Source: Branchiostoma floridae
Lineage: Eukaryota; Chordata; Leptocardii; Amphioxiformes; Branchiostomatidae
Reading direction: 5' to 3'
Length of the DNA stretch: 64,000 bases
NCBI RefSeq assembly: GCF_000003815.2
Contig: NC_049979.1
Location: 8,102,217-8,166,216 of the forward strand
Positions within the stretch are counted from its first letter, which is position 1. Every line of letters starts with the position of its first letter. The position numbers and the translations under genes were made by a program. The notes under the pieces were generated by a model. The model ran no database searches, was not told where the DNA came from, and was given only the letters and a program-made list of their open reading frames with translations. Below are positions 10,501 through 63,379 of the stretch, in pieces.

Positions 10501-13011
10501 TCCGCTCCTGGGTTGAGCTGAGACTTTCCACTGACAGTGTTCAGGAAGTCACTGAATGGATTTGTGGATGTGTATACCTGTGCAACAAACCATCACATCA
10601 TAAACATAGAAAACGCATTACATTGGTATAACGTGAAGACAGTGCATGGTAAAAAGAAGGCTGTTTTGATGTGGTATGTGGGGATAGAATAGACAATCCC
10701 TTACTTTTATAGTCAATGGTATGATACATGGTAGAAGCCACAAGATTGATTTTTGTGTTTCCAAAACATGTACATGAAGACAAGCTGATGGTATTTTTTT
10801 TCTGTAACCACTGATTGAATTTAGCAGTAAGAAATTATGTCACTGCTCAGTTTCTCACAAGCAGCTTCTGAACAAAAAGGTCTGCTTGGACTACCTTCCC
10901 AGCAAAGTTGAGCCTCTGCAGGCTGAGCGGCTGTGTTCCCATGTTGACCCTGAAGGAGTGGTTCTCAGGAAACAGAACTTCATCCCGTATGTAGCTCCCT
11001 GTGGTGTCCCCGCCACTGCTGCAGGGGATCTTCTCAATGTCCAGCACACCAACCTCCTTAGACACATCACCCTGCTGGGCATCAGCCAGGGAACCGTACA
11101 CCTCCCAGTTGTTAAGGTTGAACCACTCCTGGGTCTGCACCTGGAACTCTGCAAGCTGACCTGTATAACAGTGGAAAGATCATCGGTTAACATTTCAGGG
11201 TCGTATACGTTTCCTACTTCTTAAACACTTGGCTGAGCAATGCAATCTCTGCTGTTGAGGCTGCAACAGGCTCCTCCTGGAGGGGGCTGATATTGATTGG
11301 GCCGCTATAAGCGCAATTTCATCAGGCTGATCTTAACATGAGTGCTGGTTGTCTAAGAAGCTATTTAGGTAAAGATCTGATCCTGACCTGGAGTGGCACC
11401 TTGACAAGATGGGTCTATGTTGGCAGGATTGGCGGGGAAGTCCAGGATGACGTTAGGGCCAAGGATTATCTCACCAGTCATAGGAAGTGCCTTCAGGGGG
11501 TTAGAAAAGAGACAAGTTAATTGAAGAACACATACCAGAACCAGCAGTGGAACAATAATGATAGCAAAACATTATTTCATCTATGGGATGTGATGTAATG
11601 TAACAATTAAGCTACATTATGTAAGTACTGTGTATATGCTCCATCATCATCATCATCATCGGTCTGCCCCAGCACAAAAAATAAAAAGTTTCCCATTCTA
11701 CCGTCCTTCACTTGTAAAGATGTGCTCATGTAGCATTCACATATGAAAGCTGATTAAGAGAAAAACCTTAGCATCTTCATCATTCTTGTTTATCCTATTG
11801 AAGGTAAAATATGAGCATAGGTGGTCAAATTCTGCTGAGCTGATACTTACCAACTCTGTGATGGTCAGGTTGGACTGGATGTATACTGATACGGGCTGTG
11901 GAAAAAGAGGATAAAAATCATCAGCAAGTCTGATTTGAGAGATGACAAATAGCTTAAAACTATAAAATACTTGTGTTTTGAGACAAACATTTTTTGTGAG
12001 AAACAACCATATAGAATACACACGAGAGGGCGATGATTCAGTAGTTTGACATGTACCTGCATGGCTCCTAAGTTGATGGTGTCAGTAGGACAAGGTGTTC
12101 TGTTCAACCCTCCCCAGTTGTCTGCATCATTGTAGTCCGAGTACTTGATCCAACGTTTCACCACGGCATCGCTGCTGCCAGCTGTGGTCAAAAGGAAGTA
12201 CAAAGTACAAGTGGACTGTTTGCCATACTTTTATAACTAGGATCTTATGGATACTTTTTTGCAATGTCATTATTGCCAGTTGAAAGTTTGCCATCCATAC
12301 TGCTTTCTATTTGGTACTCTTCTTCCATGTCAAATCTTGGGCATTCTCCTTGGTCAAATCTATTCGAATAAACCTTCACAATCAATACAAAAATCTGAAC
12401 ATCCCTTCATATGTATAACGACCCGTCCCTACCTACACGTGTGTAGTGGTCCGCCCCTCCTTAGGGATGATTGACCTAGACGGGCCCATATGCCGACTCG
12501 AAATAAAAATTTGCACTTGGTTTGGCGCTGGAATCGATCAGTAAACCAGATAATCTTTCTTTTAGTTTTAATCATTGTTCCCTAATGAGATTTTCCACGG
12601 ATTATACATCAGTGGCCCAAGCCGTGAACCTGTGAAAACGGATTACCGTGGTGTAAATGGCGCTAAGTGTAGCTGATTAGCCTCTTTTGTTGACTCTTTT
12701 CTTTACGTAAGTTCGCCACCCCATCCCTCAATTCCACCTATCAATTATCTCATTTCAGACAATTATAGGAACAAATACATCCATTAGTGTCCTATACGAA
12801 GAGCACAGGTGTCAGAACTAAAATATTCCGAGCAAAGTACCGCAATCCCCTTGAAGAAAACAACAGAAAATTCTCGACAGAAGACCGTGCCAAAGTTCAT
12901 CAGGTAGCGGTCCCCACAGATGGACATGATCGAGCGCTTTTCTTCGAAAACCGTACCCTAAAAATCCAACTTACCAAGTATCAGAAACAACACAAGTATC
13001 TCCCTCATCAT
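7558..13011 (-). CDS. AMN: Amnionless (cubilin membrane anchor)
   Basis: Type I membrane protein that anchors cubilin and drives its endocytosis in absorptive epithelium. Thirteen coding exons give 538 aa (human 453): 13011-12975, 12181-12057, 11895-11851, 11490-11388, 11160-10895, 10577-10434, 10219-10123, 9915-9833, 9553-9400, 9255-9187, 8850-8751, 8331-8106, 7725-7558. Phase closes throughout. Residues 1 to about 18 are a signal peptide. The N-terminal domain has the family NW...NRTPCP signature. A VWC-like cysteine module covers about 228-273 (CACGND, CAAVQC, HCCGVCGA). One membrane helix spans about 379-404, followed by RRR and a 134-residue tail, much longer than in mammals. The tail carries FSNPNF (444-449), FNNPMY (473-478), DNPMY (484-488) and ENPIY (520-524), sorting motifs for PTB adaptors such as Dab2/ARH. 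Start choice: tandem ATGs at 13011, both leading into the signal peptide. Confidence 0.94.
11641..11661. repeat. (ATC)n microsatellite
   Basis: About six uninterrupted CAT triplets in an AMN intron. Confidence 0.85.
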
Positions 13012-20100: not shown

Positions 20101-21018
20101 GTATATAACCGTTATAAAATCTTTTTACAAAATATAATGATAAAGGAGTATCTTCTAGACTAGGTTTTATATAACATGTGAAATCGGAGTCATTTGTTAC
20201 TTTGCAAATACTTCATTTTAGGAATGAATAGTCCTAACTAACAGCTTTTAGGAATACATGTAGTCCTGAAATGCAAGACTAAACAGCTTCAACTGAGACA
20301 CGTTCACAGATCTGGGACACTTCCCATAGTTACACACAGTGCTGGTACTTGTGTTCCTGCAAGGAATGCCTCCCAGACACATTCCCGAAGGGCCCAGCCA
20401 GTGGTGCGCATGGACAGGTCAGCCTCAGGTCACCCACAGGTTGGAGATTAGCAATTACTATGCCTGTCAATCAACTGAGTGCCATATGATGGGGCTATGA
20501 ATGGGGGGATCTGAGTAGCCTGACGTGATAGCCAGGCCAGGTAGACAGGCCAGGTAGACAGCCCAGGTAGACAGCCCAGCTCTTTCATCAAACCCATTCC
20601 ATTACACATCTCACACATTACATAGATACTTAAGATAAAGAAATGCCTGTGTCACCAGTTTTGCGGTAATCGTACTTCTTCTTCGGGATAGGTGACCAAC
20701 ATCGACAAGCCAATGAATCTGTCACCCTGTTGGGTCAGGTCAGAAGTCGGGCCACTGATGAGTACTTGAACATGTGGTAGTTTTGTGGTGATCGTACCAG
20801 TCACAACCTTATGTTCCGAAACCCCTATGTGCCTATTTGTACATAGGGGGTGTTGGAATAAAGAGGCGTCAGATGTTTCTCCTCATTTCCCATCTCATAA
20901 CCTGTTTAATGTTATACTAACCAACAGAAGAAAGTCCGAGGGAGGAAAGAATGAAGTCCCATAACAGACTGAGGGAGATGACTGCAGCCAACACAGCTCC
21001 CCATCTCCACCACTCCAT
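14193..21018 (-). CDS. B3GALNT2: UDP-GalNAc:beta-1,3-N-acetylgalactosaminyltransferase 2
   Basis: ER/Golgi type II glycosyltransferase (GT31) that adds beta-1,3-GalNAc to GlcNAc, as in the core M3 O-mannosyl glycan of alpha-dystroglycan. Thirteen coding exons give 487 aa (human 500): 21018-20922, 18754-18628, 18299-18199, 17705-17524, 17140-17045, 16886-16770, 16554-16464, 16164-15987, 15639-15561, 15436-15387, 15060-14901, 14729-14673, 14321-14193. A signal-anchor lies at about residues 7-25. Family blocks are YDIIIGILSAREN, RALRATW, ILVKFVVGSKPC, the DXD motif in LKTDDDCFIDVD (D344-D346), YPSPVYPAFACGAGNILS, GEDVSLGIW, and the C-terminal cysteine-rich QCEEGC...CGNPCQC. The exon 15060 acceptor was chosen because it restores WWSRFRSGWAVEHHGKW, equal in length to the human segment; a competing AG nearby gives a shorter reading. 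Confidence 0.96.
17305..17471. mobile_element. Short inverted-repeat element in a B3GALNT2 intron
   Basis: The left arm GCTAGCCTCCAT...AGGCTCTCT and the right arm AGAGAGCCTG...ATGGAGGCTAAC are imperfect inverses about 30 bases long around an AT-rich core. Confidence 0.65.
18845..18892. repeat. Tandem CTGTCTACCTGGC units
   Basis: Three to four copies of a 14-base unit near the tip of the left foldback arm. The right arm has three inverted copies with substitutions. Confidence 0.85.
19084..19113. repeat. (TG)n microsatellite
   Basis: A nearly pure TG run at the inner end of the left foldback arm. Confidence 0.85.
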
Positions 21019-36477: not shown

Positions 36478-38313
36478 CTGTGAAACGACAATAACCCTCC
36501 ATTCAGCACATTTCCAAAATCCTGAATTCTTCTACGCACCCAGGGTTGTATATCAGCTTCAAGCGACATCGAAGCAATACCAGAATGTGTCAGTACGTTT
36601 GTGTTGGACTGGCCGCTAATAATATGATGTTGGCCCTGGGCTCGGAAGGAAATGATTTATAAATGTTGGCAGATCAACTAACATTTTCTCTTTGGTAAGA
36701 TTCCCCAGCGGATAAATTATGGATCAGCAATGCTATTGATGCTGACAGAAGAACAAATGTTAGTACCGTTAGAATCCCAGGCCGAATGTGTTGTTGTTGA
36801 TTTACAACTGTACTTTCATAAATTCATGTATGATTTTTTTTACACATGACACGAACACGCCCGTGTGCAGGTTTTTAGCCACGAATGTCAACAGCAACAG
36901 GACAGTCTTGATATGTATACGCTGATCGTTTTGCTACGACTATCAGTGAGCCCTAAACACCATAAGACATCGCAAGACTCCACGAGCGACTGTCTTCCCG
37001 GTGGCCGAGAAAGTCTATCTCCAAGAAACCAACCCATTTGTCAGTTTGTTTCTTTTCTTTTCTCATAAATAGTATCCGATGATGCAGTCCAAATCCCGCC
37101 ATATATAATAAGAACTGTTACCATATCCCTGGACGTATGCACAACTGTCGCCTAACGAAATGTACTAGCAAATGGCATGATTTCTATCACGCTTTGGTTT
37201 GGAGGAGGATGCGACAAATTCGGCTAACAGTGAGACGCGTAAACTCGTAGCGAGGTTGCCCTCTGATGACACCAGCACTTGGGAGGTCTGTGGCGTTTAT
37301 AGTACGACGGGGTCGTTCCCGTAAATGTGATGGAGGACAAATTCGAATGACGGTCTGGTAAGACAAGACATAAACCTTCAAATTTAAGCGATGCCAAACG
37401 TTTCATTTACTGATATGATTTATGTAGTACATAAACTAGTTGGGATAGCCTTGTAAAGAAATGTTAATTGCAGTTAGATAAACGGTTTGGGCCACATTTG
37501 CATTCATCAGTGTGAAAATGAGATCAATTCTCTGTTTCATTAACGTCAATACATACCAGCTACGTAGTATACATTAGTCATTGTAGATGACGTAGTAAGA
37601 CACCGCATTCTTATATCGCTATGGTATACGTCTGTTTCATCTCCAGGACATGATGTACTTAGCTTGAACATACAATAAAGATCCTTCACCCATTATGAAA
37701 ACGCCTTATTAATGTTGCTTGACTACAATAACAATTAAGTCACGAGAACATGGTTTATTTTCGTAGAGGTCCGAGCAATCACACAACCCATCATTTCTTC
37801 GTGTTGCATATTTCAGCACCTCCAAATACAGGGCTGTCTTGGGGCTGCCGCGTGAGGACGACAGCGGGCGAGACCATCAGAAGATTTATGAACTTCCAGG
37901 GGGCGGGAAGCTCGTGTTGATAATGAGCAAATAAAACAGCGGCCATTGCAGGTCGGGGGTCCATTCACTGTTGACACCTTTGGGGCAATTTTGCTAATCT
38001 TCTCGCCTTTTCGGTTTGGTGCAAATTTCCTGGCCGGATCTGACCTGTTGAAACCGCCAAGGGGTAATCCGATGTGACAGGAACAAAACACGCTAATTAA
38101 TCGAGTAGGTGACGAGTGTATTTGTCCCCATTTGTCACGTGCGCACTCCCATTCTCCCCCGCGCTGCCACAAGCGCCTGGGCGTCAGAACAGCGCGGGAC
38201 ACCTCTCAAAGTGGTCTGTGTGCACCGACTGGGCACAGGGCTGTCGTTAGTTGAACAGGTCCACGCTGTCGTGATTTGTCTGACGCCTGCCTCGGGACAG
38301 TGTGAGAGAGGAC

Positions 38314-41300
38314 ATGGCGTGCGGTCGCCGACTGCATCTGACCAGGGCCGTCACGGTCCTGCTGACGGTACTGGGGACCGCGATCGTCGTAAATATCTCC
38401 CCGCTGGGCTCCCGTAATGACCGTCACCTTTCCCCTGACCCCCGGCCGGGCGACGACCAGACCCTGCCGGCGAGGCTCACGGCGCACATCAGGGACTTGC
38501 AAAACGAACTGGAGATCAAGAGGAGAGAAATTGCGGAGTACAAGGAGAGCATGGACGTGCTGGTCTCCTCACGTAAGCCGGAGGAACCCAAATTCCGACG
38601 GCTCATGGACGCTAGGCGGGAGAAGCTCTTGTTGCAGGTTGTCAACACGGACGCGCCCGCCGGGGCCAACGGTACGGCCCGACAGGACCCCGGGTACATC
38701 GGCTGCAGAGAACTTGAGCACATCAAGGTTACCGGACCTGCTGGATCTGGGTACACCAAAGTTGTACAGAAGGGGGAGTACAACGGCGTGGACGTCGCCA
38801 TAAAATCAGTGGCCATGTCCGGTCACGACATGAGGCTTTGTCTGGACACAGGCATGGACCGTCGGGACTGCTCTGCGCTGGCCAACTACAAAATCGTCAA
38901 GGAAGTTGCCCTTTTACAGGCCCTGGCCCATCCCAATATTATCAAGGTACTGGAACCATCATTTCCTCCAAGTTTAGTGTGGAAACATTTTTATGTCTTT
39001 CAATGTTATCAGGGCACTGCAAGCCTGAATGCTTTCTAGCCGACTAGGTGGGTTCAGTTTCACCCACTTCAGCTCTCCAGGCCCTTCACCTCTGTATACT
39101 ATTCTGATATAGTTTTTTTGAAATGCAGAAATCATAGTATGAACGCCTCTGCCCCTAGCTCTTCCTGTCAGTGTGCCTACATATAGCTCGTTGCTCATCA
39201 GCTATTCCATGTATAACTTGTCTGTGCTGATATGGTAGTAGCCTTGGACCGTGCCTGCATCTGTGTTGACTCTTGTCGTTGTTGTGTTAGACAAAACGGT
39301 CCTACCCAGTTTATCTTGCACCATATGTACCAAGCTCTCCCGTTTCCCACCTCCAAACCTTGAAATGGTTGGCGGGGATTATTGCGTTTACTGTGGGTCG
39401 GGCATAAGAAAGGAGGGAAGGGCTTTCCCTTGAGCTGCCTTCCTTACGTGCTATTGTTTGGAACAACTGGAACGTACAAACACTTTGCAACACACAGACC
39501 CTAAACGAAACCCTAGAATAAGTGTCCATATTTTGTCCCTCAGGTCAAACCTATGGTTTAGAGGCAGAAGTAGGGTTTCCCGATTGGCTTCGTTTGTTCC
39601 GGGAGTGTGAAACTACTTTCTGTGATAAGGCAGCAGTTTTCGCAATTGCCCACAAATCCCCAGCGATGCACTTGCCGTGTGGTTTATCACAGGGACCGGG
39701 GACCGCCGTGTTGTGCTCCTTTATTTACCCTAACGAGCGAGGCGGGTCCACAAAATAGTTATGCTAATAATATGTGGGACGAACTGGGTCGACAGAGAGT
39801 GTAAATTATGTCGCAGTTTTGACATACATGGATCGCGATAAATGCACCTAGAGGGTACTTGATGATTTAACGACATTATATATCGCACTATGGCGCCGTC
39901 CGTTGTCCGAGCCAGTGCCACTTATCTCCAATGGATCAGAAAAGCCGGAGAGAATGGAGCGTGAGATAGGTTTTTACTGGCGGGCACTGGGCTCTCTCTC
40001 TGTGGAGAAACAGATCTCGGCTGACCCTAAATTTGGCCCGCCTGACTCTCTGTTGCACCGAGATGTGAGAGAATGTGCATACTTCGGGGCAGAGCGTCAT
40101 CGGAGAGGACCCAATGTCGGATAAGTAATCCCCATTATAACGCCGACAACACGCGTAGCTAGCCCACTTCTCACCACACTGAGACGTGTTTCCGACTTGC
40201 GGAGACGAGACCCAGGCCCCAAATCCCACTCTCCACCCTATCTCCACCTGCCAGGACTGACCAGACTCGTGTCAAAATCGGCCTTTCAATCTTCTGGTGA
40301 TTTCCGCTATGGAATGGGGCAGGCCGATTCTCTACGGCACAGGACACCCCATCTTTCAAACCAAGCTTTCCGAAGTGACGGAAGGCTCCCCTAGGCGATA
40401 CCTATTACAAACAACAAATCACACTCCATTTGAGGTGCTAGAGGCGGTTTATTTTTACTACTAATCCCCCATACCCCACCGTGACACACCAGGTCTGGTT
40501 CTCTCAGTAACGTTTAAAACTTTCCTTACAAATGGCGAGATGGTTAATGTCCATAATTTAGTTCACATTGCGACATTTCCGACTTTTATTTTTATTTATT
40601 TATAAGACAGACTAAGAAAAAGGTTAGATGAAAGTTTAGTTCTTCTACGCCTTCTACGGTACAACCATCATGTAGATTATATGGCACTTCAACATTGGTA
40701 TGGTGCCAGCATTTTGGGAAAGGCAATCCTCTCTTCAAAGCCCTTGGTTGTCTCGTGTTTTCTTACCCTGTTGATCACAATTTGTCCCCCCTACCAGGCA
40801 ACCTAACAAAATTACTCCTCATTTCTCAAGTTTCCTCAACCCTGGCATTGGCATACCACACATGACTAACTCGTTTATTTTCTAAAAGATAAATGAAGAG
40901 TCCCACAACTTGCGATAGACAAGAAGCCAACGATAAAACCTGACCAGAAAATGGGGGTTTTGACAGCAGAGGTGCTGGAATGAATTCCCCTTCCACTATC
41001 ACTGTGACTCAGATGGTATCTCCATCCTGGGCCAAGTATTTGGCCTCTTTCTCCATGGGTCAATTGCATGTCACTTGAATCACCTCAGCTGTTGTTGTCA
41101 GTGCAGTCTAGTAGTCCCCACACCTATAGTATGTCAGTGATAGTCCCATGTGCCAGACTAGGGGTGGGTACCGGTACAGTCAGTGGGAGTCGAATACTCC
41201 ACAAAACAGAGTTCTTTGTATTGAAATGGAGATTAATGGACTGTTGTTTTGAGTATCTTCCATTCACAAGTTATCACAAACTGAATCAGGTCCAGGTTCA

Positions 41301-44300
41301 GGTCCGGACCTGGACCTGATCCGGACCTGAATTTTCTGTACGGTACCCACCCCTATGCCAGACAATCCTGCCCTTTAGGCGCGAGGGTACAGCACTGAAA
41401 TTTATGACAATACTATACTAGACTGGTGTTTATAGGCAATGACACATTTGTTATCTATACATTGCCATACATTGTCACTGATGCAATTGTTGTGCAATAA
41501 ACCTATCTATCTATCTATATGTATACTAGATTTGAAGGAAAAAATGTGGCTTCTTTTTCAGTTTCCAATATATGGTGATGAATGACTTATGTTATCTTCT
41601 GTGGTTTTGAAATGTCCTTTAAAAAATCTCAGCAATGATGATGTTTGTCAGTTCCAAGGCCATCATACATGTATATGGGAACTGCTCATACACTGGTCTT
41701 CTATTTCTAGTTGCAATACCAGCAGGACAACCAATCTACAACCTTACTATGGACTTTCCGCTATGATTCTCAGTAGGTCCCATCCCAAGTCCAGGCAGTG
41801 AGGGTGTAAAGACAGAACAGCTTTAAGTATTTCTTATCTAAATATGTTGACCCGAAAACATCATTATGTTGTGGCAATTGTGGAAGTATCTGAGGCATTT
41901 GCCAGGAAGGAGAGGCCTTAACTGTGCACTACTGTACAAGTGATAAGTCCTGTTTCAAAGCTGTTCTTTTAGAGCGGAGGATTGTCTCAGACGGATGTGC
42001 CCTGCAACCATTGGTGCTCCCTTTGTAAATTCCAATTTCCTAATGGTAAGCCTCGCTCTATTTGGCATTAACCTCGTGATTGAGTGGATGTCAAGACTGT
42101 TCAACATCAAGTGCAGATCCAGGAGTTAGGGAGGGAGATATGTACTGTAGACTGTAGTCTACTCAATCCCCATAGTCTCTGGCAAGGATTGTAAAGCTGG
42201 CGTTACACCACAGAAAAGGATGCTTGCCAGATAAGTTTGCAAACTCTAATGCTCTAATAGACATTTTCGACCATAATACAGCTAATGTCCTCCATCAATG
42301 TTTGCAAGTCACCAATACAAGCCCAGTCCAATGTAACTGGATAGGTGTTCTGGTGAAAAATACACTCAACTCTCAAGTGATTTTGAAGTATTTGGGAAAT
42401 TTTCGGCAATGAACAAATTCGCTGTAATACCATCATAGCTGTTCAACAAGCTCAGGTTTAACAATTTTTTTATTAGCAACTTTTCTTTCTATCTTTTGTT
42501 GTTTTTTAGCACTTCTTGTTGTACTCTATCTATGTCACAACATGCCATAGTGCCAGGTGTTTGTTTCTGTGACTCGTGTGTGTGAGACCATTTCTATCCA
42601 GGGATAAGATGTGTAGTTTTGAGCCATTCTGTATAGTAAGTTCATTTCATCACAAATGTTAATATAACAAAATGTTCTCTTTTGCCTCAAGTCTAATCCT
42701 CCTGAGCCCATGGTGTCCATGTCCAACTGTAACTGACACTGGCACCATGTCAAATGCACCCTTGTCCCCTTCCACTCCAGGGAGCAGGCCACTTCCTGCT
42801 GGGGGCCAGACCAGGGGTGATCACTGCTTGTGGGTTAACCTGCCGGAAAATGTTCGACTCCCTTTTCCTTTGTCAACCCAGCATGGGGAAGGGCAAAGGG
42901 GGGATTCTCTTACCCACAGACCAGCTCTCATGCCCTTTGTAATACTAAAAGACACAATGATATAAAGTGGTATCAGAGATGATCCTTTCCTGGGTGCCAG
43001 ACCGGACTAGGCAGCCAGCTAGTTTGTTTGCTTGTTCGAAAATATTGCTACTGAAAATATTCTTATGAATCTACTAGCTCTTTGAAGTCTTCCCAACCTG
43101 CTGCAAATAGCTAATTTTGAGGAGATAAATACTAATTACCTTCCTCTATTCACTGTTGGTCTCTAATCTAATGTACACATGCAATTAACTGAGACTAAGT
43201 AACTGCGAAGCTGGTGTGTTTCACCGAAGGGCGGTTATACTGGCTATATAGATACAGATACAGAACTGCTTGTAACAGCACATACTGATCGGAAACTGAA
43301 CAACAACACAAGATCCTCGACCTGCCTTGGCAGTGGTGTTATGCAAAATTGCACACAACATCAGCCTGTCAGAGTGCTGGATGACCTAGATATTTACCCT
43401 AGAGTGGTAATCCTGTCAAATTGCTTTATTTCAACCCAGTTGGTTTCTCAGTCTGCGAAAGACTAATTTTGCAAGCACTTCTAATTTCTGCTTTATTCTA
43501 GACCTTTTTTCTGTTCCCAGCAAAGCCGCTGTGATTGACAGGACTTGCTGGGTTCTATTTATCCCAGCTCTCCTCCCCTTCCATCTGTCCCCTCCTGGGA
43601 GCCTTGCCCCTTTTGGCAGGGGGGAAATGCTACCAATGTGGCAAATGTTCCCCCAAGATTATACCAAAACAACGATTTCCAAACATCCACCCTGGGTGGT
43701 TGGAGTGGGCAGTTTGAGTTCTGTTGGAAAATTTCCGCTATGTTATCAAAGTTGTCCAGAAAGTCTGGTAAAAATGTCTCTAATAGCTCGTATCCAGCCG
43801 TATTATAGCCAGAATCATAAATATGGAGAGGAAGGAAGACACTCAGGAGTTACAACATGGCTGGATACCAGGCTACGTCTCCAATCACTTTAGTTTTAGG
43901 GCTCCTTTCTAGGCTGGACAGACAAATTCACTACAGCATCACTACTACAGTTTGCGTCCTATAACCACACGGGTGCAACTTACTAACTACAGTAATACAA
44001 ATTGTATAGTTTAAAAAAATGTAATGGTTTGGGGAGGTTCATGCGTATGATTGGATGTTTGATTCAATTTGCAAAGCAATGATATTTTTGTCTGTGACCC
44101 TAGCATTTCCCCCTGTTGGAAATGGGTCATTTCAATGGTGGTTTTCAGATTGTATTCCCTAAAGCTGTCATTAAGTACTGGCAAACTTGCTTATGTCACA
44201 CCTGAGTATGAATGCCTTTGTTTGTATCCTCCCAGTTGCTAGGTTACTGTTTCCATGGAGGCGAGGACGGCTCTGTCACCTCCATAATGGAGTTGGGAGG

Positions 44301-46684
44301 ACCTCTGGACATCATCAACCTACTGCAAGCTTCCTGGGAGGACCGCTTCAGGGTAAGGCTCAACTCTTTGGAGGTATATAGGCAGTTTGGTTTTATACAC
44401 TGTAGGCTGTGAAACAGTCATAGTGGTTTTATGTTCAAGGTTTTCATCACACTGTGAACATGTGTGCCAAAAAAACAATTTACTCAAGCAATTGGATATG
44501 ATTTTGGAAAGGTCAGACGTTTCAGATAGCCATCCAGCGTCTTTCGTCAGTGATACGGGAGATATCTTGCTGGAGAGGTTTTTTATAATCTTACTTAGCT
44601 GGGAATTGATATGCAACAGAGATCTAGTTGTGAACATGTGGCATGTCTTCATTTCTACCATACCTGGTACCACTGTATTGTTTCAGCTGCAAACTGAAAA
44701 CAGTGCAAACACCAACTTTCCTCCTTAGCAACTTAGCATGGTATCCAGTCCAGCCCAGAATAACAGGAAAACGAACCTAGATGTTACAAGTTGAAATGAC
44801 TCGGCCTAATTGTGTGCAAAACTGAAGTACCTACAAATGTAGGTATCAACTTGTCACAGATTTGCATTTCTGGCCTAAGTTCAAGTATATGTAGGTATCA
44901 TGTTGCCACAGATTTCTGTTTTGGGCTGAGGAGGTTGACGGTTTTGTGGTTGAATTACTTATCTTTATCTTTTTCCTCCACAGATAAGTCTTGGCCTGGC
45001 TCAACTCTTGGCTCACCTGAACTCCTCTCCCATCGGCCCTGTCATCCTCCATGACTTCAAGCTGCAGCAGTTCGTGCTTGTTGATGGGGAAGTGAAACTA
45101 GCAGACCTGGACGACGCTGACAGTTACGCCCCAAACTGTCACGACGACTCCGACTGCACCTTGGAATTCCCGGGGACGTCCTTCCAGCTGTCCTGTCGGC
45201 AGGGGACATGTTCGTCATGGAGCGACAAGAGCAACCTGTACAACGCCTACAGATACTTTTTTGTGTACCTGCTTCCTTTTGAAGTGCCAGAAGCATTGAA
45301 ACCACTTGTGGATGAGGCCATGAATAAGACAGGTAGGAGATTGAAACTGCTGAACCCATACCATGTCCTGGTGACATTTTTAGGGCATTTGAGAATCTCA
45401 AATGGCTCAAATACTTCTATCAAGTAGGAGATAAGTACTGTTTCAGACAGGCATAAGCATGACAGTACTATATGTACCTCTACCTATAATAAACAAATTG
45501 TGAAACACGGTATAGGCTAGAATATGAAGGTTTCATGTCGAAAATGTGGAGGTAACTTACCCTAACAGTGATAAGATAAGTTTTTGCTGTGCAAAAGTTT
45601 TGTACATAATGGATACTTGCACTGACTACCTTTGCCTCCTTCTGTGTTCCACTGTAGCTACCCTGCAGTGGTCCAGTGAGGAGACTGCTTCCCACATGGA
45701 GAGGATCCTGGACCTGTATCAGAGTGGGGCCTACCTACACAGGGAGGGGAAGTCAGACATTACTAGTGAGTAAAGAAAACTCATTCAGAACTTCTTGTTA
45801 TGTCAGAAGGCAACAATTCAAACCACACAGTAGTCCTTCATCTTTAGAAATTAGAGTAGTGTATTTTTATCACCAACAAATCCAATGCAATGACATTTTC
45901 ACATCTTTTGGGTGGAGAAAAGTTTTAGAACTGTACAAGCCAAAAAGCAGTTACTCAAGCAACTGGATATGATTTTCGAAATCCAATTGCTTGAGTAACT
46001 GCTTTTTGGTTTATTACCTGGATATTTAACTTTCATCGACGTTAGAACTGTATATAGTTGTGTGTATCATAACCAAACATTCTAAATGTTTATTGAAGTC
46101 AAGATGAAACTGTAGTAATCAACAACAATGTGACATACCAACTTGCATTCCCAGGTTACAAGAAAGTTCCCCAGTCTGATGTTCCAGGTGTGGGAGACTT
46201 CGACTGTCTGAGATCACTGTCCCGGGGAGCGTGTGCAGTTTCTGTGTTTGATGCGCAGGAAGCAGCCAGCATGTGTGACAGCGATGCTGAATGTCGGGGC
46301 TTTGTCCTTACCAAGAGGAAGACTTGGATAGGTGAGCTGGGACAGGGTTGCATTCACATGCAGTTTACGAAGGGATAACTTTGGCTTCAATTATGAAAGC
46401 ACAAGTAACTCATCAAGTAGACTTTTAACATGCTTATATGCACAAAGTATACCTTAAACGTTTTTTGTCTAAATTGTTTCCGATCGTGCAGTTATAGTTA
46501 ATGTTTCTAGAATATCTTTACTGTTAGCATTCATCATTAACTGCAGGTATCAAGATGCTAATTTGTTCTTTGTTTTCTTTTCTCCCTTTCAGGTCGTCCT
46601 GTGGCATACTTCAAGAATGATGTGTCCTCTCCAGTGGAAAATGCAGACACAATACTGTACACTAAGGTCCTTGCTCCAACATAA
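38314..46684 (+). CDS. PKDCC: Extracellular tyrosine-protein kinase PKDCC (VLK)
   Basis: Secretory-pathway kinase that phosphorylates tyrosines on secreted and ER-resident proteins, with roles in skeletal and lung development in vertebrates. Six exons give 491 aa (human 493): 38314-38946, 44236-44352, 44984-45332, 45658-45765, 46155-46331, 46593-46684. A signal or anchor helix lies at about 11-27, a predicted coiled coil at about 55-82, and an NGT glycosylation site at 119. The kinase domain shows a glycine loop (GPAGSGYTKVV, 141-151), VAIK with K164, the catalytic loop LHDFKLQQFVLVDG (D274), and DLDD (D291) in place of DFG, as in the vertebrate protein. ELGGPLDIINLLQASWEDRF and NLYNAYRYFFVYLLP are family hallmarks. 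The C-terminal cysteine module (CLRSLSRGACAVSVFD...CRGFVLT) matches too. The ATG at 38314 follows an in-frame GTG that I did not use. Intron 1 is 5.3 kb. Confidence 0.96.
41159..41355. mobile_element. hAT-like MITE with exact 8-bp target duplication
   Basis: 197 bp. The termini are TAGGGGTGGGTACCGGTACAG-like and its inverse, flanked by TGCCAGAC at 41151-41158 and 41356-41363. Near the right end is a palindromic cluster of CAGGTCCGGACCTG-type motifs (41290-41330). Confidence 0.9.
41503..41525. repeat. (CTAT)n microsatellite
   Basis: About four CTAT units in PKDCC intron 1. Confidence 0.8.
44466..44555. mobile_element. MITE-like element, family A (copy 3, partial)
   Basis: Left arm GCCAAAAAAACAATTTACTC with GGATATGATTTTGGAAAGGT, then a GACGTTTCAGATAGCCATCC block. 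No right arm was found. It lies in PKDCC intron 2. Confidence 0.65.
45939..46009. mobile_element. MITE-like palindrome, family A (copy 4)
   Basis: Arms GCCAAAAAGCAGTTACTCAA and TTGAGTAACTGCTTTTTGG form a near-perfect 70-base palindrome in PKDCC intron 4. Confidence 0.8.
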
Positions 46685-47512: not shown

Positions 47513-50500
47513 TCATGTAACTTGCAACTCTGCTGCAGCTGAATCATCACCCGATGCACCCGAAAGTGTAGTCACAGTTGCTGTGCAGCTTGATCTAATA
47601 CCATACCCAGAAACAGGGACACATGCGTCTGACACAGGTGACGTATCAAGTGGTCCAGCAGCATCCAGTGGTGATGAAGAAGTAGTGCCTCCAAGAGCAC
47701 CAGTCAAGTCAAAGGCATCATGCGGCAGAGACTTCTGCACTATGACATTCCTGTTGTTCCTCAGACTGAATTCATAAGCAGCATCTCTGCATCAAAGACA
47801 AATTCACACACTCGTCAATACAGACATCATTACATGGAATGATACAGAATCAACGGGTAGCATATAGCAGTCATTTAAAATGGTTACCACCTCCAAGCTT
47901 ATTTGTGGACATCATCTAGGTGGAAAAGATAACTTCTTCAAGACAGTACTGCAAGATCAGGGGAGCTATTACAGTATCGCAGGACGTGGAACAATAAATG
48001 ATAAAGAGTATGTGAGAAAAAAATTTGACGACAGAGTATGGCATTGTGTTCGGTCACTTTTCTGGAAATCCAAGACCTTAAGAATCTTTAAGAAACAAAG
48101 AAGCTGATTTTCTGATAAACGCAAAGAAACTTGAACACTGCACTGATTAACGATATGGCTCTTCTACCCGTCTACTGTAAAAAGAACAAAGTTTTCTCAC
48201 TTGTAGGGCTTCCTCTCTGCTGGAGACATGGCAGCCCACTTCCTCCCCATCATGGTGCTGATCTGAGTAGATGCATATCCAGAGTACCTCCTGAAAAAAA
48301 GACAGAACAGAACTTGCTCACCTCAACCACAGAAGTCACTTTCTGGGCAATCAGACATGCAGAGCCCCCATGCTACAAAGAACTGAATTGCAGCTTTTTT
48401 TCTTTGCTTGAAGCACAGCTATTTGTTACGCATACTTCAATAAGGCTGACTATTTTGTAACGTCATCACATAACCACCACAATTTATTTATTTATTGAAA
48501 ATTCACCATAGACAGAAAATTGGCTGGGAAAGCAAAACAGGTGAAAGACACCTCTTCGAGTTGCCTCCCTTTATAAATGACAATTGTAATAACGATAACA
48601 AAGATCATAATGGAAACAATGATAAATAAAGCATAATTTTGTCAGCAACATAATACCCCCCCCCCCCAAAAATTGCTAGAGGTGCATGAATGTGACTCAC
48701 TGTTTCTGCTTCTCTCGAACTATCTTGCAGAACATGATGAAGCCATTCACACACTTCTTCTTGTTCTTAGCTCTCCCGTAGGAGAAGCGCCTCCTCCTGG
48801 TACCAGATCCCCTGTCCTCATCCCTGTCTTCAGAAGGCACCTTTTGGTTTGCTTCCTTGTCTGCCTCATCCCCAGATGTCAGCAGCTGACCAGCAAAGCT
48901 CCCATCATGCAGGGTGTCCACCGAGGAGTTGGATGTGTCGAAAATGCTTTGTTCATTCAGGTTCTTCCAGATTGGCGGGGTGAAGGTCTTGGGAGGAGCT
49001 GCCATAGTTGCAGAGTAGCAGGGTGGACAGGAGGATGGGCGGCCAAATGGTGAAGTTTGGATGTAATCATCCACGGCGAGCTTGCTGCATGGCATTTCTT
49101 CTGCCTCAGGGACAACAGAGTCCTTGTGTGGAGGATGTAACTCTGGAGAGGCAACAATTGGTGTCATCAAGTGAGCATCAGTCTTATCAGCCTGATCCAT
49201 AGGGACTACCTGCTGTGGCGAGGAGCTACGAGGGTCACTCCACAACTTGTCAGGCTGGAAGAAGGCAGAGAATCTGTCACCGATATCATCATCGTCAGGA
49301 ACGGCTGTCTCCACGCTGCTGTTGTCTTCACTACTGAAGAGTGTTCTCCTTGCATGGGGGAAGGGCCGACTCCTGTCCAACCTTCTCTCCCTCTGTACCA
49401 TCCATCCCAGATCTCTCCTTGGTGTACTGTCCTCCAGACATTCAGTGCAGCATCTCCTTGGTTTGGTCTTCCGTCTTGGTCTAGCTGCTCCTTGGCTCAT
49501 CCATTTCTTCTTCGATTGCTTTGGTGTTTTGATGTTCTCAGTTTGGTGGCAAGTACTTGCTTCAGACTTCATTGCTTCTGCAGCTAGGGTGTTACAATGG
49601 ATGTCTGCATCTCTGCAATGGGGCTGTACTGGGTTTTGATGATCCAGCCCAGCCATGTTTCCTGCCTTCAGATTGAAACTGCCACTGGTTCCTTCATCAG
49701 CATCCTGCTCCTGTTTTAGACTGCAGTACTTGTCAAGGCACCTACCCTCGATATGTTTAGCCAGCATGTGCAAGTCATAGCTGAGCACAGATGGTGACAT
49801 TGTGAGGATGGCAGGAGAAACACCAAGCTCCCTGCACACATCCTTCAGGCTGACCCTGGTGGTGCAGGGTTCGATTCCCAGGTTTGTGTAGGCCATTTTC
49901 AGTTCCGTGTGTAGCCAGTCAATGTACTGGATAGACTGCTGCAACACACGGCACTGAGAAAACATAAACAAAACCAACTTAATTGTCATGTACAAAAACT
50001 TATGGCTCTTTTCCAATTGTAATCATCCTCTTTTACAAGTATCATCTGTGTATTACACAGTAGAAAGAGCTTTTCTGTAGTACAGTGTTGAACACCCTAC
50101 CTTGGTCTGTTTCGGTCCATCCTCAGACACTGGCAGCAGCCCAGCCATCTCCTGCAGTGCCACCACCGTGCTGCGGTGTCTGTCCCTTTGGCATATAAAA
50201 AAATAGAAAACTCTTGTTACCGTCAGTCTTGTTAATTCCAACGTATGCAACATCACTACCCTTGTCCCATAAATGGTCATGTCCTTGGTGCTGAAATGGA
50301 TTATCCGTTAGGTTTTTCACACCAGCTGGTGTTTGTTGTTAAACTACACTCAGCAAAACTAATAGCACATATTTTTGCCACTTTCATGATTCTGAAATAG
50401 CGTATTGAAGAGCATATTTTCTATCATTCAAGACAGGCACAAGAAGTCCCCTTTTCCCATGGACATACATGTTTCAATCCCAGTCTCCTCATCAGGCTAC

Positions 50501-51666
50501 AATACTCTTAAACGGAAGAATGGCTCAGGAACACACAGGAATTCTCAAAATGTTACAAAGAATCATTGTACACAGGAGGCAGGCAGAATACTCAGAATGG
50601 GAGTTAGGAAAATGGAGACAGCTAGAATGTTCAAAACAGTGTCAAGAAAATGACCTGGCTGACCTCTCCCTTTGCCTGTGCACTGCTCTTGGAGAAGATG
50701 ATATCTGGGGCTCATCTGGACCCTCCACACTGGCTGTGCTGGACTCACTGTCAATTGATAACTAGACAGTGGGGGAAAATATACATTAACGCACACTGAT
50801 GCCCTGTACCATCAAAGAGTGGAATGAACTTGTGCCTTGTGTGATGGAGGCAAGAGTCCATCTCCCAGTTCAAAGATGAGCTGGGATGGGCTCCGCTGAC
50901 ATGAGCTGTCCCGTCTTTTGTACATATGTAAATAGGTGTAAATAACAACTCTAAACTTCACCTGTCCAGTCTTTTTGCGCATGTCTATGTTTTTCCCCGT
51001 TCTTACCCTTTGTTTGCACAGCTGCTAATAATCCGCTTTGTTTTGCGGGCTAAGCAGTCCCAAACCAAAGATGATGGAAGTCTTTTTCCTGAAATTTTCC
51101 AGATTCATACAGTCAGCTGGAATACAAGAAAGCAGCAAGGCCTTTATAGCTAGAGGGAATATGTGTCACCTGTGAGCTGGAGCTGTGGCTGGAGCCGGAC
51201 CAGTCCGAGTCCTGGCGCAGAGGAAAGTTCACTTCCTGCACCAGGTGATTAATGTCGGCCGTGAACCTCTGCTGGGAGCTCTGTAGCATGGTCAGGGGCA
51301 GGCAGGTAGCAGCGCCGGGGGACAGGCAGCCTATATCTGACAACTCACCTGGCTTGGGCTGGACACAACAGTACAGGATGAGGAAACTGAAAACAACTAC
51401 TGTAGTGTAAATGCAGAAAATTTCGCGGTGGTTGCTTCACTACGAATTTAAATCCACCGCGAACATTTTCCATGGCAGTAAGAGACTACAGTGCATGGTG
51501 CTACCGTGAACTTAAATCTACCGCGAAGTTAAATCCCCGTGAACTTAAATGCATTTACAGTATTGATACAAATATGGAGAAGAGATAAATCAAGTCTTTG
51601 ACAAAATTAGAAAATCTTTACAACAAACACTTGTCTGTTGTCTTGTTCTCCCACCTCATCTTCCAT
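47513..51666 (-). CDS. bHLH and HMG-box protein, MEIOSIN/BHMG1-like
   Basis: Predicted nuclear transcription factor. In mammals MEIOSIN acts with STRA8 to switch on meiotic genes. Seven exons give 658 aa: 51666-51655, 51352-51170, 50743-50664, 50185-50101, 49953-48701, 48290-48201, 47786-47513; all phases close. The bHLH spans about 84-140: basic region VHRQRERRDRHR, helix 1 STVVALQEMAGLLPV, loop SEDGPKQT, helix 2 CRVLQQSIQYIDWLHTEL. A long Ser/Pro/Lys-rich middle is mostly one 1.25-kb exon. The C-terminal HMG box is at about 519-580 (CVNGFIMFCKIVREKQ, MMGRKWAAMSPAERKPY, KDAAYEF). A bHLH before an HMG box is, to my knowledge, specific to MEIOSIN/BHMG1. The four-codon first exon and the 51352 and 50743 acceptors are the least certain parts. 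The orthology call is inference. Confidence 0.78.
48657..48668. repeat. Poly-C run
   Basis: A run of about 11 C just outside the large exon of the MEIOSIN-like gene. Confidence 0.8.
51399..51562. mobile_element. Short repeat with TACTGTAAATGC-type termini
   Basis: Starts TACTGTAGTGTAAATGCAG and ends with the near-inverse TGCATTTACAGTA. The interior repeats CCGCGAA and TTAAAT motifs (TTAAATCCACCGCGAA and variants). It lies in intron 1 of the MEIOSIN-like gene. Confidence 0.7.
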
Positions 51667-54600
51667 CTTGACTGACCACGATGACCAGGAGTTCAGTCCA
51701 GCAGGGTCCATCCTTCTCTGGCCAGCAGGCTGCCCTGCTGCATGACAGTATTAAAGGTGAAAAACTAATGTTGTTAAAGCTGAAACATCAGGCCATTGAT
51801 GGTACAGGAGTGCTTCCTACTCACATTAAATGGTCCAGCTTGGCTGTTTGGATTTGGAGGACTCTTAGACAACTTGAATATACATCATGTAAGATATAGA
51901 TATGTAAAATGTAAATATGCACATACATGCAACATTAAAGGAGAATTTAGCATCGTTCAAGCACGTAACGTTCTTCAAAATCAAACATGTTTACGCCCCC
52001 CTCCCAACATTGAGATTTAACCAAATTAAAAGCCATTATCGTTGGTACTTTTTCCAGATGATTCAAAGAGGTACTACTGTGAATATTACACTAAAACAGC
52101 GAAATGCACACATCAAGAGAAAACTTCACACATATACGTATACGCTCTTGACAAACATAGAGTAGATACAACAATTCACAAGTTACTAACGTTACGTAAA
52201 CCAAACTTTTCCCGCCATTTCTGGCCAGCCATGATTGAGGTTTCTCTCACAGAATTACTAATTTTTCTGCTCTCCGCCTACGCCATAACATGCAATTATG
52301 ACTATATACCATATGAAGAGACTTCCCACTCTATATACTGATTTATGAAATACGAACTTACTTTGTAAAAATGGACAGTCAATTCTTGTTTCCTCCAAGT
52401 CGATAATGTGCCAGCGATGATTCGGAATGTGCCATTACAAGATCAAATGGGGGATGTCAATTACCAGGTATAGCTTTGAATTATCAACGACAAAAATCGA
52501 TAAATACGACAAATATATGAAAGTAGTACATAATAACACTGATTGAATAGGTTAGAATGTAAAGGGGCCCTGCTATGGCATAAAAAATGTACGTAATGTT
52601 TAATAATTGTCCTTCACTTCAGAGGTCAATGGTTTGACCTATCCTTCACTCGGTGATGGAGGATTATGGAGGGAAAGTCAGTGGTTCGAAGCGCATAAAG
52701 TCGCAAGTGAGGCTGGTTCATACACTCTTCTTGGCCGTAGACCTCTTCGGTAAATGGTAAAGGTTTTGATAACTAGTATGTATTACATTTAGATCCGAAA
52801 CCTCTAATATACAACATAGTATTTGTATGCATATTCTTGTTTAATTGGAATCATGTAACGTTAGGTGTAGTTTGCACGTTGGTCGCTAGTCGACGCCCCT
52901 GCACCTAAAGTTTGAAGGGAAAAATATTATTCCTCTGATGTTAGGGTCTAACCGTTTAAGCCACCCTTTAGATTTGACGTTTGCGAAATCTGGTGACAAA
53001 TTGATTTGCTCAGGAACTCACATAAAGCAAAGCTGAACAAAAGGATAATGTTAACGTTATATGTTCCTGTTGTGTAACGTTAATTGTCCTCATATAAACG
53101 TTACAGTACCTTCCTATAATTTCCTCCCAGTCATAACCCGAAGCTCGACTTTGAGACTATCGGCATGTCGAGATCATTTCGAAGACGACTTTGATTATTA
53201 TTTTCATTATCCAATTCTTGACAACGCAGACTACACTCTACACTGACAACGCAGACTACACTACACTGTCTATTAGGTACAAAATTGCATGTAGAAAATG
53301 TCACTATATGCGCGCCAACAGTCACCACATCAGATAGACATACAACAATCTAGTAAAGTTACATTTATCTACTAGAAGTATATTTTCCATCTTTTTATGC
53401 CCCATAAGCAGGCAACTTTTTGCGACGCCAATTTCTAATGTCATCGAAGCGGTTCCATACCTTGTCCTTACGTGCACCCAATCGGTCATTTGAAGCTTTA
53501 CATCTGTCATGCCAGCAGACCCAGACATTGCTTCCAACCACGCTTCAGACCTGTAACGTTAACGTTATATAATATGGCTCGGCCCTGATATGCTGGCATC
53601 GCTATAGAAGCGTAGTAGCCTTCTTTCGTTTCTAACGAATTAGACAACCTTTGATAATAAAACATATCTGTCCCTATGTATCTCAGTGTATACCAGTCGC
53701 TTGTTGTAGCCTGTAGGTATATATGTGCAAGAAAGGTATTCATTCGACCATCGATTCATCAACGTGCAGTTTAAAATGTGCTCAATCACCATTCATAATC
53801 GGCTTTCATGTGGCGATTCATATCAGTATTTTTTTTCCGGTCGATAGACCCTCAAAAACCTTGAGTCAGATTTACACGTCAACTTGGCATGCTTGATTAT
53901 AGTTTATAGATAACGCGTCCTGAGCCTTGATTCTAAGATGCAGGGATGAGATACATTGCCTGTTGAATCAGCCGCTGCGAGCCCTTGACAACTGCGCAAT
54001 GCTGTAACAGGTGGTTGCCACATGCTAGGGTAAGGTGAAGGTTCGCCGCCTTCACTGTGTACAACTCATGAAGCGCCCCAACAATCTACAAAGAGCTAAC
54101 AGCGAAAACAACAAGGGCTAAGCGGATAAAGGCTTTGACAGAGTCTTTATGCAACTAAAACACATTTGGTGTGTGTGATGCTTTTGCCACTGCACATTGC
54201 GCACACCCTGTAAATATTTGCCGATCCGCCAGTTGGAAAGGCTTTTTGTTGAAAATCCACATCTTGGAAGTCGGAAGTGCAGACCAGACCCGCTATTGTG
54301 TCAGTATTCATCAGTTAGACATCTTTATTGATCGGAATTGCATGTCTGAGCTGTAACAGCTGGTGTAAACTGTCACTGAAATAAGGCGACGTTAGAGAAA
54401 TCTTTGATGTAAAAGAAACAGGTAACCATTAAACCGGCGTCACACAGCATGAAAATGACTCACCTGATGAGCCTGCGAGCTCTATAGAACATTTTTCGTT
54501 GAAAGAGGGCCGATGTCCTCTCGATCAATGTGTATTTTTCAGGGATCGGTCGACGATCACATGTCAACGAGCTCCGCCTAATATAAATGAGTACATTTCC

Positions 54601-56082: not shown

Positions 56083-57289
56083 AGCTTTAGACAGCGAGGC
56101 AATGACTATCTGGTAACTATATTTAGAAGACTATTGCTCTATTAACCCCACCCTTAGAAATACCAGGTTATCATACGATTTCTACTTCCCTCTTTTCACT
56201 GACCACATTCCCCTGGTACTGCACTTTCCGACTTCTCCAGTTGCAAGAAGACGGTTTGTTGTAGTTTCCAGATAACCTGTACTCATTGAACCAGTTTCGT
56301 GTTGTCAGTGCTGGACATGGTCTCAAAACAGTCCGGATCGGGCGATAAACACGGTTATGCCACTGTGGTTATATTGTCGATCAACAAGATACTAGTATGT
56401 ACAGTAGTTGATGAAGATGTCTTCCTAGGAACCATCTCATGAACAATTTTCTCAACGCGTGGATTCGCTGAACATTTGTTACACTGTAAAATGATGCAGC
56501 ATCATCATGGTATTGTTAAAAGGAACCTTGCTTGACCTTTAAAGTGCGAAACTGGAACAGAAAAAGCCACGCGATGACAAATGGGCAGCTAGAAGATTCA
56601 GACACACGAAGCTGCTGACCGGGGGGTGCATCCCAAGAATCGCACAATCAACACTGTCGCCACGTGAAACAAAGGACCGACGTCCTGGCGCGTGTTTGGA
56701 CACGCATGGTGCTCCGTACCAGTATCAACGTAACGTTAATGGCACGACAGAATGACAACCTAAATGGACCGGGACTTAAGTTTCAAACGCTGTAGATGAG
56801 ATGGCCTGATAGATGGCTAGTCATACGGACTTGTCCAACTCTTGCGCACGGGCTATGTAGGGCAGTTGTTAGAGGAGAATAGGTATTGATGGGTTAGGCC
56901 GGGCTTTCGGGTAAAGTTACAGGAAGCTATCCGTTGTCACCACTTAAATGTTTTGTTCGTGCGCAAATAGACAAGTGCTGTGTTCTGGGATATACAGTTG
57001 CTTACTAGGCCGGAAGGGTGTAGCCATTAGGTGTGGTGCCTTGTACTCGTAACTACCTTTATCACTCACACATCGACGCTACATCTTGGTCGGTGATGAT
57101 TTACAACTACAAGCTTTACATAATGGCGCTGTACAATGAGACACCTGACCAAAGTGGTACACAACTCCAAACCAGTCCTGGGAATACGCCAAGATGTTAA
57201 AACTACCCTCACTGTCACTGACATCTCTTACAATGCTTTATTCTTCCTTCCTCATTTTCCAGCTCTTTCATCGTCATCGACATCAGCAG

Positions 57290-60921: not shown

Positions 60922-63379
60922 AACACATGCTCGCAGCGGGTACACGTCGCCAGGTCCAAGCCTGAGATTTTCGTTGACAGGCTAGTCGATCAATGTCTTG
61001 TTGAGTCGATTTGGGGAGGAAATAGGGGTCACAGGGAGAGGTAGCCCGACTTCCTGATCTTGTGAGAGGTCTTGGCGGGAAAGAGCAGCAGACATCCAGA
61101 AAGTCTGGCTCTGCAGGGGGGCTGGGAAGACGGCTACCGGGGACAAGGTTCGGACGTATCTCTAGAGGGTAGTCTCAGAGTTTGAGTGTCGTCTGCAAAT
61201 GAAAGCAAACTCCATGGTCCATAGTACAGAAGGGGAGTGGCAGGTAACGGCTCTAGTCTCTACCAGACTCACGCCTGGCCGAATATATCAGACCAAGTTA
61301 GGAATAAAAGCCTAGTAGGAGTTAATTATTCTCCAAGCAGAGGTTGGGTCGTTTTACCGGTAAAAAACCTGACCACTACTATATCTCCGCGCCCCAACCT
61401 CTGCTTGGAGAACGAGTTATTTGGCCTTGGAGTGTGGTCGGTCTGGTGCCAACTGCACTCCTAGATCATCTAACTACTCTGGAGTGTTTTCTGTCTTATT
61501 TGACCAATTTCGACTATTTTTCCAGCGATCTGCGGAGCCTGGTAGAGGCTATAACAGCTCGTCGAGGTGTCCATAAAAGGAGCATGTGGTCGTCCTTCCC
61601 TCACTGGTGCACAACGATTGTACAGGATCCCCAAGTAAATGAGAAATAAAAAAAAGTTTTCTACCTTTCAATTATGGATCTTTTAAAGCACGCCCTACAG
61701 CATTTGACCCAGGACCTACTCCTGTCGATCGGTAAAAGCACTCGGCGTCAAGAAATATTTGAATCTATCCTGCTGGCATGAGGAACTGGTCGTACCGTGT
61801 CCATCGCCGCTTCCTGAGTGACATTCACTGTCCGTCTGTCTGTTATATAGTCTGTGGTGGCCGAGAAAAAAGTGCACGCGTATTCTTGCTGTTAAAAACT
61901 ACCATTTCGTAACTGATATAAACATAACGTTAGATATAAATGTTTGATTGACCTCATGTGATAGGCAAAATGCCCCACGTATCAAACTAACTATCCACTC
62001 TGAGCTGTCAGTGCCGTGCCTTATCCTTGTACCAGGGGAACATTACCTTTGGCGCTACCATGAATGGACAATCATCCTCCTAATCCCGTCTTGATCTGTT
62101 GTGGATTATGAACTGGTAGGGGCTCAGTGTACAATTTCCCAGACGTTATCTCTATTTTCTAAAGGCTTTTATGTGTCTTCTTTTGTCGTGCAACAAAGCC
62201 ATGTTTACAACGACGATTATTTTCTGCAACCTTTCCATTTTCTGATATCTATCTTCCCTTTCATTTTTTATGTATTTTTTCTTCCTTCTATGCTTTTCCC
62301 CACACCCGCTGCCCGGTCCTGTGCCAGCCTGATTACCCCCGTGGCCCAGAGGCCCCAGACCTACACCTGTGTCTGGTAAGTTAAGTGGTAGAAGGCAGCA
62401 AATACTATTACCAACCGGATCAGCGCGCTTGTGGCGATTATGTGGATTTTCTAGTAAGACCACATCCACGCATGGTACATCTTAGTACAAAGCACTTGAA
62501 ACTAGAACACCCCAGGAGACCCTAGGTATCAGGGACTGGACTCGGCCAGAGGAAAAGTAAGAAATCTATCGTCGAGTGTTGTTTTCTATTGTGTTAGAAA
62601 AGTGTGATATCCTTTTCTTTGAGCGAGTTGTACATTGTATATCAAACAGCATAAATGAAGAAAAAAAACTTTTACATTCTGTTGCCTTTGTCCTTTTTTG
62701 TGACTTCTATGTCTCAAGAAGGTTTTGGTGGGGAAAATTGAGCATCGATTATGAATATGTCTCTTATGTTGGCAAATCTTGCTTTTCCTACACACAGCAT
62801 AAATATCTACCACCTTTGCGTGAACCCTTAGCAAAACAACAATGAAGACAGCAGACGGCACCCTTGCTCGAAGAAGTGGAAAATTAAGGAACATAGCCCG
62901 AAACATTCTTTCTGCAACACCAACCTACTTAACATTCTCCAAACTTACACGTTCTTTCAACACAATAGAATAGAATGACAGCTTACAAATTCAATAGTGT
63001 TTATCAAGTGTGTTTATCTGGTCGGAGGGCGCCTCGGAGTCTGAATACTCCGTGTGGGGCTGCATATTGAGGTACATACTTACATAGTTGGCCCGGCTGT
63101 TCTACATGTCAGTGCTGTTTGTTAAAGGGTACAAACGATCGACCACTCTGATAAAGTAAAGGTTAACCTGTTTGTGTTCACTTAAGATCACCGGGCTGCT
63201 GTTGTATGTGATAGAAATAACAACCCATTCACGTTTAGTCTTCTTGAATCGATCAAGAATTTGAAGTTGTGGTCCATCAAGGAAATCCTTCATTTTTAAT
63301 GGGGAAGTTGACAAGACTGCGTCGATAATAAGTTTACATCGTATTGTCTCACTTTGATTCGCTTCAACGTAATGTTGAC
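60922..63379. other. Gene-poor spacer
   Basis: Apart from one small palindromic element at 61329-61412, nothing was recognised. Open frames of about 100 codons near 62152-62906 and 63102-63407 lack family resemblance or splice support. Confidence 0.45.
61329..61412. mobile_element. Small TIR element related to family B
   Basis: TTCTCCAAGCAGAGGTTGGG and its inverse bound an 84-base unit. The termini share CTCCAAGCAGAGGTT with family B, but the interior differs and no clear target duplication was found. Confidence 0.7.

Follow-up and report, generated by a model that had tools for sequence, protein, structure and literature searches.

A lancelet gene encoding a bHLH and an HMG box as a probable relative of MEIOSIN (BHMG1)

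Introduction

Does an invertebrate chordate possess part of the switch that sends mammalian germ cells into meiosis? In mouse, MEIOSIN (BHMG1) makes germ cells leave ordinary division and enter meiosis. It acts as a heterodimer with STRA8, and its control by retinoic acid in mouse is a regulatory trait rather than a defining one. MEIOSIN, formerly Gm4969/Bhmg1, is reported to contain a bHLH and an HMG domain. Passages of two papers describe meiosis as better conserved than the mechanisms that switch cells into it (PMC6392498, PMC12848572), and in part of another report zebrafish meiosin serves as a meiotic-entry marker (PMC12289312).

The window analyzed here is a 64-kb stretch of the lancelet Branchiostoma floridae (C1:8102217-8166216), and the lancelet genome that was searched comprises 513,431,437 bases in 431 contigs. 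A sequence-only reading of the window had proposed a MEIOSIN-like gene at 47513-51666, in which a bHLH precedes a C-terminal HMG box.

Gene Structure

The lancelet bHLH-HMG gene is on the minus strand, from 51711 to 47513, and its seven exons encode a predicted protein of 681 aa. Exon 1 (51655-51711, aa 1-19) includes the start codon and ends with a GT donor. The ATG at 51711, in the context AAGG-ATG-G, is the first of the open frame, and an in-frame stop precedes it by 13 sense codons. The proposed span was thus right at its stop end but not at its start end, as 51666 is an internal in-frame ATG (Met16). Exon 2 (51170-51358, aa 20-82, phase 0), exon 3 (50664-50761, aa 83-115), exon 4 (50101-50185, aa 115-143, entered in phase 2), and exon 6 (48201-48290, aa 561-590) all have AG/GT borders. 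Exon 3 codes for the bHLH basic region and exon 4 for helix 1 and the loop. Exon 5 (48701-49953, aa 144-560) codes for bHLH helix 2, the linker, and the first part of the HMG box. Exon 6 covers the middle of the HMG box and was also observed as a weak HMG_box match in a profile scan of the genome (C1:8150413, E 0.084). Exon 7 (47513-47786, aa 591-681), with an AG acceptor, codes for the end of the HMG box and the C-terminal tail, and its stop codon (TGA) ends at 47513.

The six introns are 147-478 nt long and all GT...AG, and their phases join the exons into a single frame of 682 codons including the stop. In the spliced product, each of the remaining five frames is interrupted by 14-46 stops. 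The stop-to-stop frame around exon 5 is 441 codons long, compared with a longest frame of 140-205 codons per window in 20 simulated 64-kb windows (second-order Markov). The G+C content is 0.556 at third codon positions versus 0.391 in introns. The gene is open, spliceable, and apparently intact.

Domain Architecture

Pfam recognizes HLH at aa 107-155 (E 1.3e-5, 25.4 bits against a curated cut-off of 20.7) and HMG_box at aa 542-595 (E 2.8e-10, 40.9 bits against 25.4). The domain ends given by the sequence-only reading (140 and 580) match those of Pfam after a shift of 15 residues, while its domain starts lie 8 residues earlier. The Pfam domains together with exon 5 bear out the order that it had claimed, with the bHLH first and the HMG box toward the C terminus of the same gene product.

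The gene model is predicted from the genome sequence and both domains are split across exons, which would be compatible with a model that joins two neighboring genes. However, exon 5 extends into both domains: the last part of the bHLH and the first part of the HMG box are read from it in a single frame, and the phases agree at every junction. It is therefore one gene; this is a strong argument against two merged genes and contradicts the suggestion that the bHLH and HMG exons belong to separate genes. A join of two genes is hardly credible.

DNA-Binding Features and Candidate Sites

None of the 49 PDB matches was named MEIOSIN. For the HMG part, the best PDB matches were SOX- and HMGB-type boxes, headed by an SRY/HMGB1 chimera (E 2.4e-4). 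The N-G-F-I of the lancelet HMG box aligns with N-A-F-I in the SRY part of that solved chimera, and DNA bending is therefore suggested. The nonapeptide CVNGFIMFC, searched as degenerate DNA, had no exact match in the viral contig or genome contig collections. For the bHLH part, there was no PDB match below E 0.18. The basic region, HRQRERDRHR, shares a His and a Glu with MAD and with a Max/E2A chimera, but a His stands where both have Arg. Because of this His in place of Arg, the plain E-box may not be the binding site. CACGTG occurs 3 times in the window versus 8.37 expected.

MEIOSIN is reported to share the CNCCTCAG consensus with STRA8, and part of one paper reports STRA8 at CNCCTCAG, not at CANNTG (PMC6392498). 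There are six CNCCTCAG sites in the window against 6.56 expected, and none of them is located within the lancelet gene or between it and the upstream end of the window. An E2F-like sequence, TTTCCCGCC, is found three times as an exact match versus 0.41 expected (530-538, 52208-52216, and 61074-61082). The site at 52208-52216, on the plus strand, is ~0.5 kb upstream of the start codon. It is of interest because E2F6 and MGA are reported to repress Meiosin in mouse embryonic stem cells, and it is taken as a lead only. The DR5 pattern, allowing at most one mismatch, occurs 6 times in the window versus 5.16 expected; the nearest such element, a one-mismatch site at 56522-56538, is 4.8 kb upstream and no better than chance. 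There is also a perfect DR5-type element, AGGTCA-N5-AGGTCA, at 20416-20432 on the plus strand. It is ~31 kb from the lancelet gene and may be due to chance. A bacterial promoter scan was discarded as it has no meaning for an animal gene.

Relatives in the Lancelet Genome and Similarity to MEIOSIN

Comparison of the protein with its own genome, made exon by exon with scoring of the best candidates only (13 here), revealed neither a second copy nor a paralog. The 10 resulting matches were the seven exons of the gene itself and three weak HMG matches (E 0.014-0.46).

The profile scan of the genome yielded 78 HLH and 46 HMG matches. The bHLH tree contained 41 sequences, the lancelet gene and 40 others, since 48 of the 78 matches were retrieved and 40 of these had sufficient length. 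The HMG tree contained 19, the lancelet gene and 18 of the 46 matches, some of them partial. Neither domain of the lancelet gene falls in a supported clade with the 40 bHLH or 18 HMG domains sampled from the same genome, on alignments with long branches and few columns. The branch lengths are 3.23 in the bHLH tree and 4.54 in the HMG tree. The best identities among the sampled domains are 37% for the bHLH (to L006) and 30% for the HMG box (to L017). The bHLH joins five other lancelet sequences (L057, L065, L068, L070, and L072) with a weak 64/72, flagged as a long-branch join. Membership in another bHLH family, named beforehand as an outcome that would speak against MEIOSIN, is thus not borne out among the sampled domains, but resolution is poor for short domains on long branches, and the weak join remains.

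Pairwise scores give a similar picture. The best partner of the bHLH scores 74, and just 2 of 42 lancelet bHLHs have a lower-scoring best partner (69 and 70). The best partner of the HMG box scores 82, which exceeds that of 2 of 18 lancelet HMG boxes (50 and 62). Judged by these scores, both domains are outliers among lancelet domains, but they are not alone in this.

The HMG segment that we take to be that of human MEIOSIN is provisional, and its letters may be biased toward the lancelet protein, which had been read before. It aligns with the lancelet HMG box with a score of 132 and 26 of 64 positions identical. For comparison, among 18 lancelet HMG boxes the best score of the lancelet gene is 82 and that of the provisional segment is 91. 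Once the first 11 columns of this segment are removed, its scores are 73 with the lancelet gene and 64 with the best lancelet HMG box. This match is regarded as a lead only.

A scallop gene bears a name that is presumably the expansion of BHMG1. The gene was named for its bHLH and HMG domains in a 2019 scallop paper, where it is a core gene of a module that shows a positive correlation with male gonads; the word "meiosis" does not appear in the main text of that paper. This invertebrate gene resembles the lancelet gene in the pair of domains that its name denotes.

These observations bear on whether a bHLH and an HMG domain were fused independently in the lancelet, in a protein that serves something other than meiosis. 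As would be expected of such a fusion, each domain forms a long branch and lacks close kin among the compared sequences, and the common origin with MEIOSIN therefore depends on architecture and on the provisional MEIOSIN segment. On the other hand, the same domain order, together with the scallop gene in a male-gonad module, makes a chance combination less likely. Independent fusion is considered improbable. MEIOSIN likewise has a bHLH and then an HMG box within one protein, and orthology of the lancelet gene to MEIOSIN is likely. The weak bHLH join, the smaller margin of the trimmed MEIOSIN segment, the lack of CNCCTCAG in the gene and upstream of it, a nearest DR5-type element no better than chance, and neighbors that do not recall the human ones speak against it. 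At a rough probability of 0.7, the lancelet gene is a member of the MEIOSIN (BHMG1) family, which would be a germ-line factor turning on meiotic-entry genes.

Relationship to STRA8

STRA8 is the other protein with which the lancelet gene has to be compared. Part of one paper describes mouse STRA8 as a protein of 393 aa and STRA8 as having a putative bHLH at 28-79 and an HMG box predicted by Phyre2 at ~216-268 (PMC6392498), the same order as in the lancelet gene. A potential LXCXE motif is reported, in a passage of another paper, to be conserved in vertebrate STRA8 (PMC10600341). In contrast, L.C.E is absent from all 681 aa of the lancelet protein, its HMG box is plain to Pfam, and it is much longer than mouse STRA8. 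Therefore, of MEIOSIN and STRA8, the lancelet gene is MEIOSIN-like. The shared domain order would also suit an ortholog of STRA8 rather than of MEIOSIN, but with these three differences that assignment is very unlikely.

The sequence-only reading had raised the question of a STRA8 partner. A provisional human STRA8 sequence gave one match in the lancelet genome, at E 9.09. It is a weak query that also missed the lancelet bHLH-HMG gene, and a diverged STRA8 would therefore be missed as well. The single match was rejected; it lies in an open frame downstream of a reverse-transcriptase-like sequence (QGDPLSS and YADD, recognized by eye). HLH and HMG matches within 60 kb of each other on one contig were observed as two pairs among the 78 HLH and 46 HMG matches, in a scan that is poor at split domains; the HLH of the lancelet gene itself is absent from the 78. 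One pair, on C6, has a bHLH exon that looks TAL-like by eye and, 18 kb away on the same strand, an exon with a weak HMG-box match (L007 and L036; C6:9102327 and C6:9120116). The other pair, on C1, is on opposite strands and 47 kb apart.

The bHLH of the provisional STRA8 has its best z-score with the lancelet gene, 5.69 versus 5.67 for the ordinary lancelet bHLH L056, in a ranking that holds seven wrong-strand sequences (L001 and L003-L008). Its raw score is 53 with L056 versus 45 with the lancelet gene. Seen from the lancelet gene, it ranks 11th by z-score, with the same seven wrong-strand sequences in the ranking. The HMG-like part of the provisional STRA8 shows no similarity to the lancelet HMG box (z 0.2).

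The lancelet gene could also be an unduplicated relative of both STRA8 and MEIOSIN, in which case the ancestral protein would have paired with itself or with some other HLH protein, and a duplication in vertebrates would have given rise to STRA8. The common domain order, the lack of a detected paralog, and the narrow lead in z-score agree with such a history. So do a passage in Abby et al. stating that STRA8 is specific to vertebrates (PMC4729902) and the fact that the provisional human STRA8 finds nothing real in the lancelet genome. Part of a Ciona study places STRA8 among markers without homologs there (PMC9776925). Against it, the raw score favors L056, STRA8 is only 11th from the side of the lancelet gene, and the HMG parts are unlike each other; moreover, the STRA8 search and the scan for neighboring HLH and HMG matches, neither of which detected the lancelet gene, are too weak to exclude a diverged STRA8. 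This history is rather doubtful, and membership in the MEIOSIN family is the preferred reading.

Genomic Surroundings

The human neighbors are taken to be SYMPK, IRF2BP, and RSPH6A for MEIOSIN and NUP205 for STRA8. In a Pfam scan of 20 open frames, the recognized neighbors gave no sign of this human MEIOSIN neighborhood. At 5837-6382 on the plus strand, there is a DNA polymerase alpha/epsilon subunit B domain (PF04042, E 1.8e-9), which is POLE2-like by eye. Amnionless-like exons are present at 10850-12230 on the minus strand (PF14828, E 5.4e-8 and 0.011). The convergent neighbor of the lancelet gene is at 38284-46684 on the plus strand, its extent being judged by eye. A FAM69-type protein kinase domain was observed at 44954-45424 on the plus strand (PF12260, E 1.1e-4), at 22.2 bits under the cut-off of 25.2.

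The lancelet genome also contains a MEIOC gene, at C16:12764123-12765805 (L094 and L095), with four exon matches to PF15189 (best E 1.2e-17). In mouse, MEIOC supports Meiosin expression, according to part of one report (PMC12848572).

Discussion

As a member of the MEIOSIN family, the lancelet gene would act in pre-meiotic germ cells and turn on meiotic genes, an expression and control that we infer. The HLH of its protein would dimerize with a STRA8-like partner, with another HLH partner, or with itself. The basic region and the HMG box would bind DNA, perhaps at sites other than the plain E-box, and the HMG box may bend it.

It had been suggested that a copy in a non-vertebrate chordate would push back the origin of the switch. 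The argument loses force, since the same two domains already figure in the name of a mollusc gene. The lancelet gene is not the first outside vertebrates; MEIOSIN-like genes are already visible in invertebrate annotation. Among the matches listed from the open literature, there was no title or abstract start that dealt with MEIOSIN in an invertebrate.

It is possible, as a tentative view, that a MEIOSIN-type factor is older than both STRA8 and vertebrates and starts meiosis in the lancelet in the absence of STRA8, either by self-dimerization or through a different HLH partner. STRA8 would then be a later, duplicated partner that binds RB. Part of the mammalian meiosis switch may thus predate vertebrates. 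A MEIOSIN-like gene in the lancelet together with the one in the scallop would make at least half of the mammalian switch ancient, and the lancelet, where no STRA8 is obvious, would offer a setting for studying the role of MEIOSIN on its own or with a different partner.
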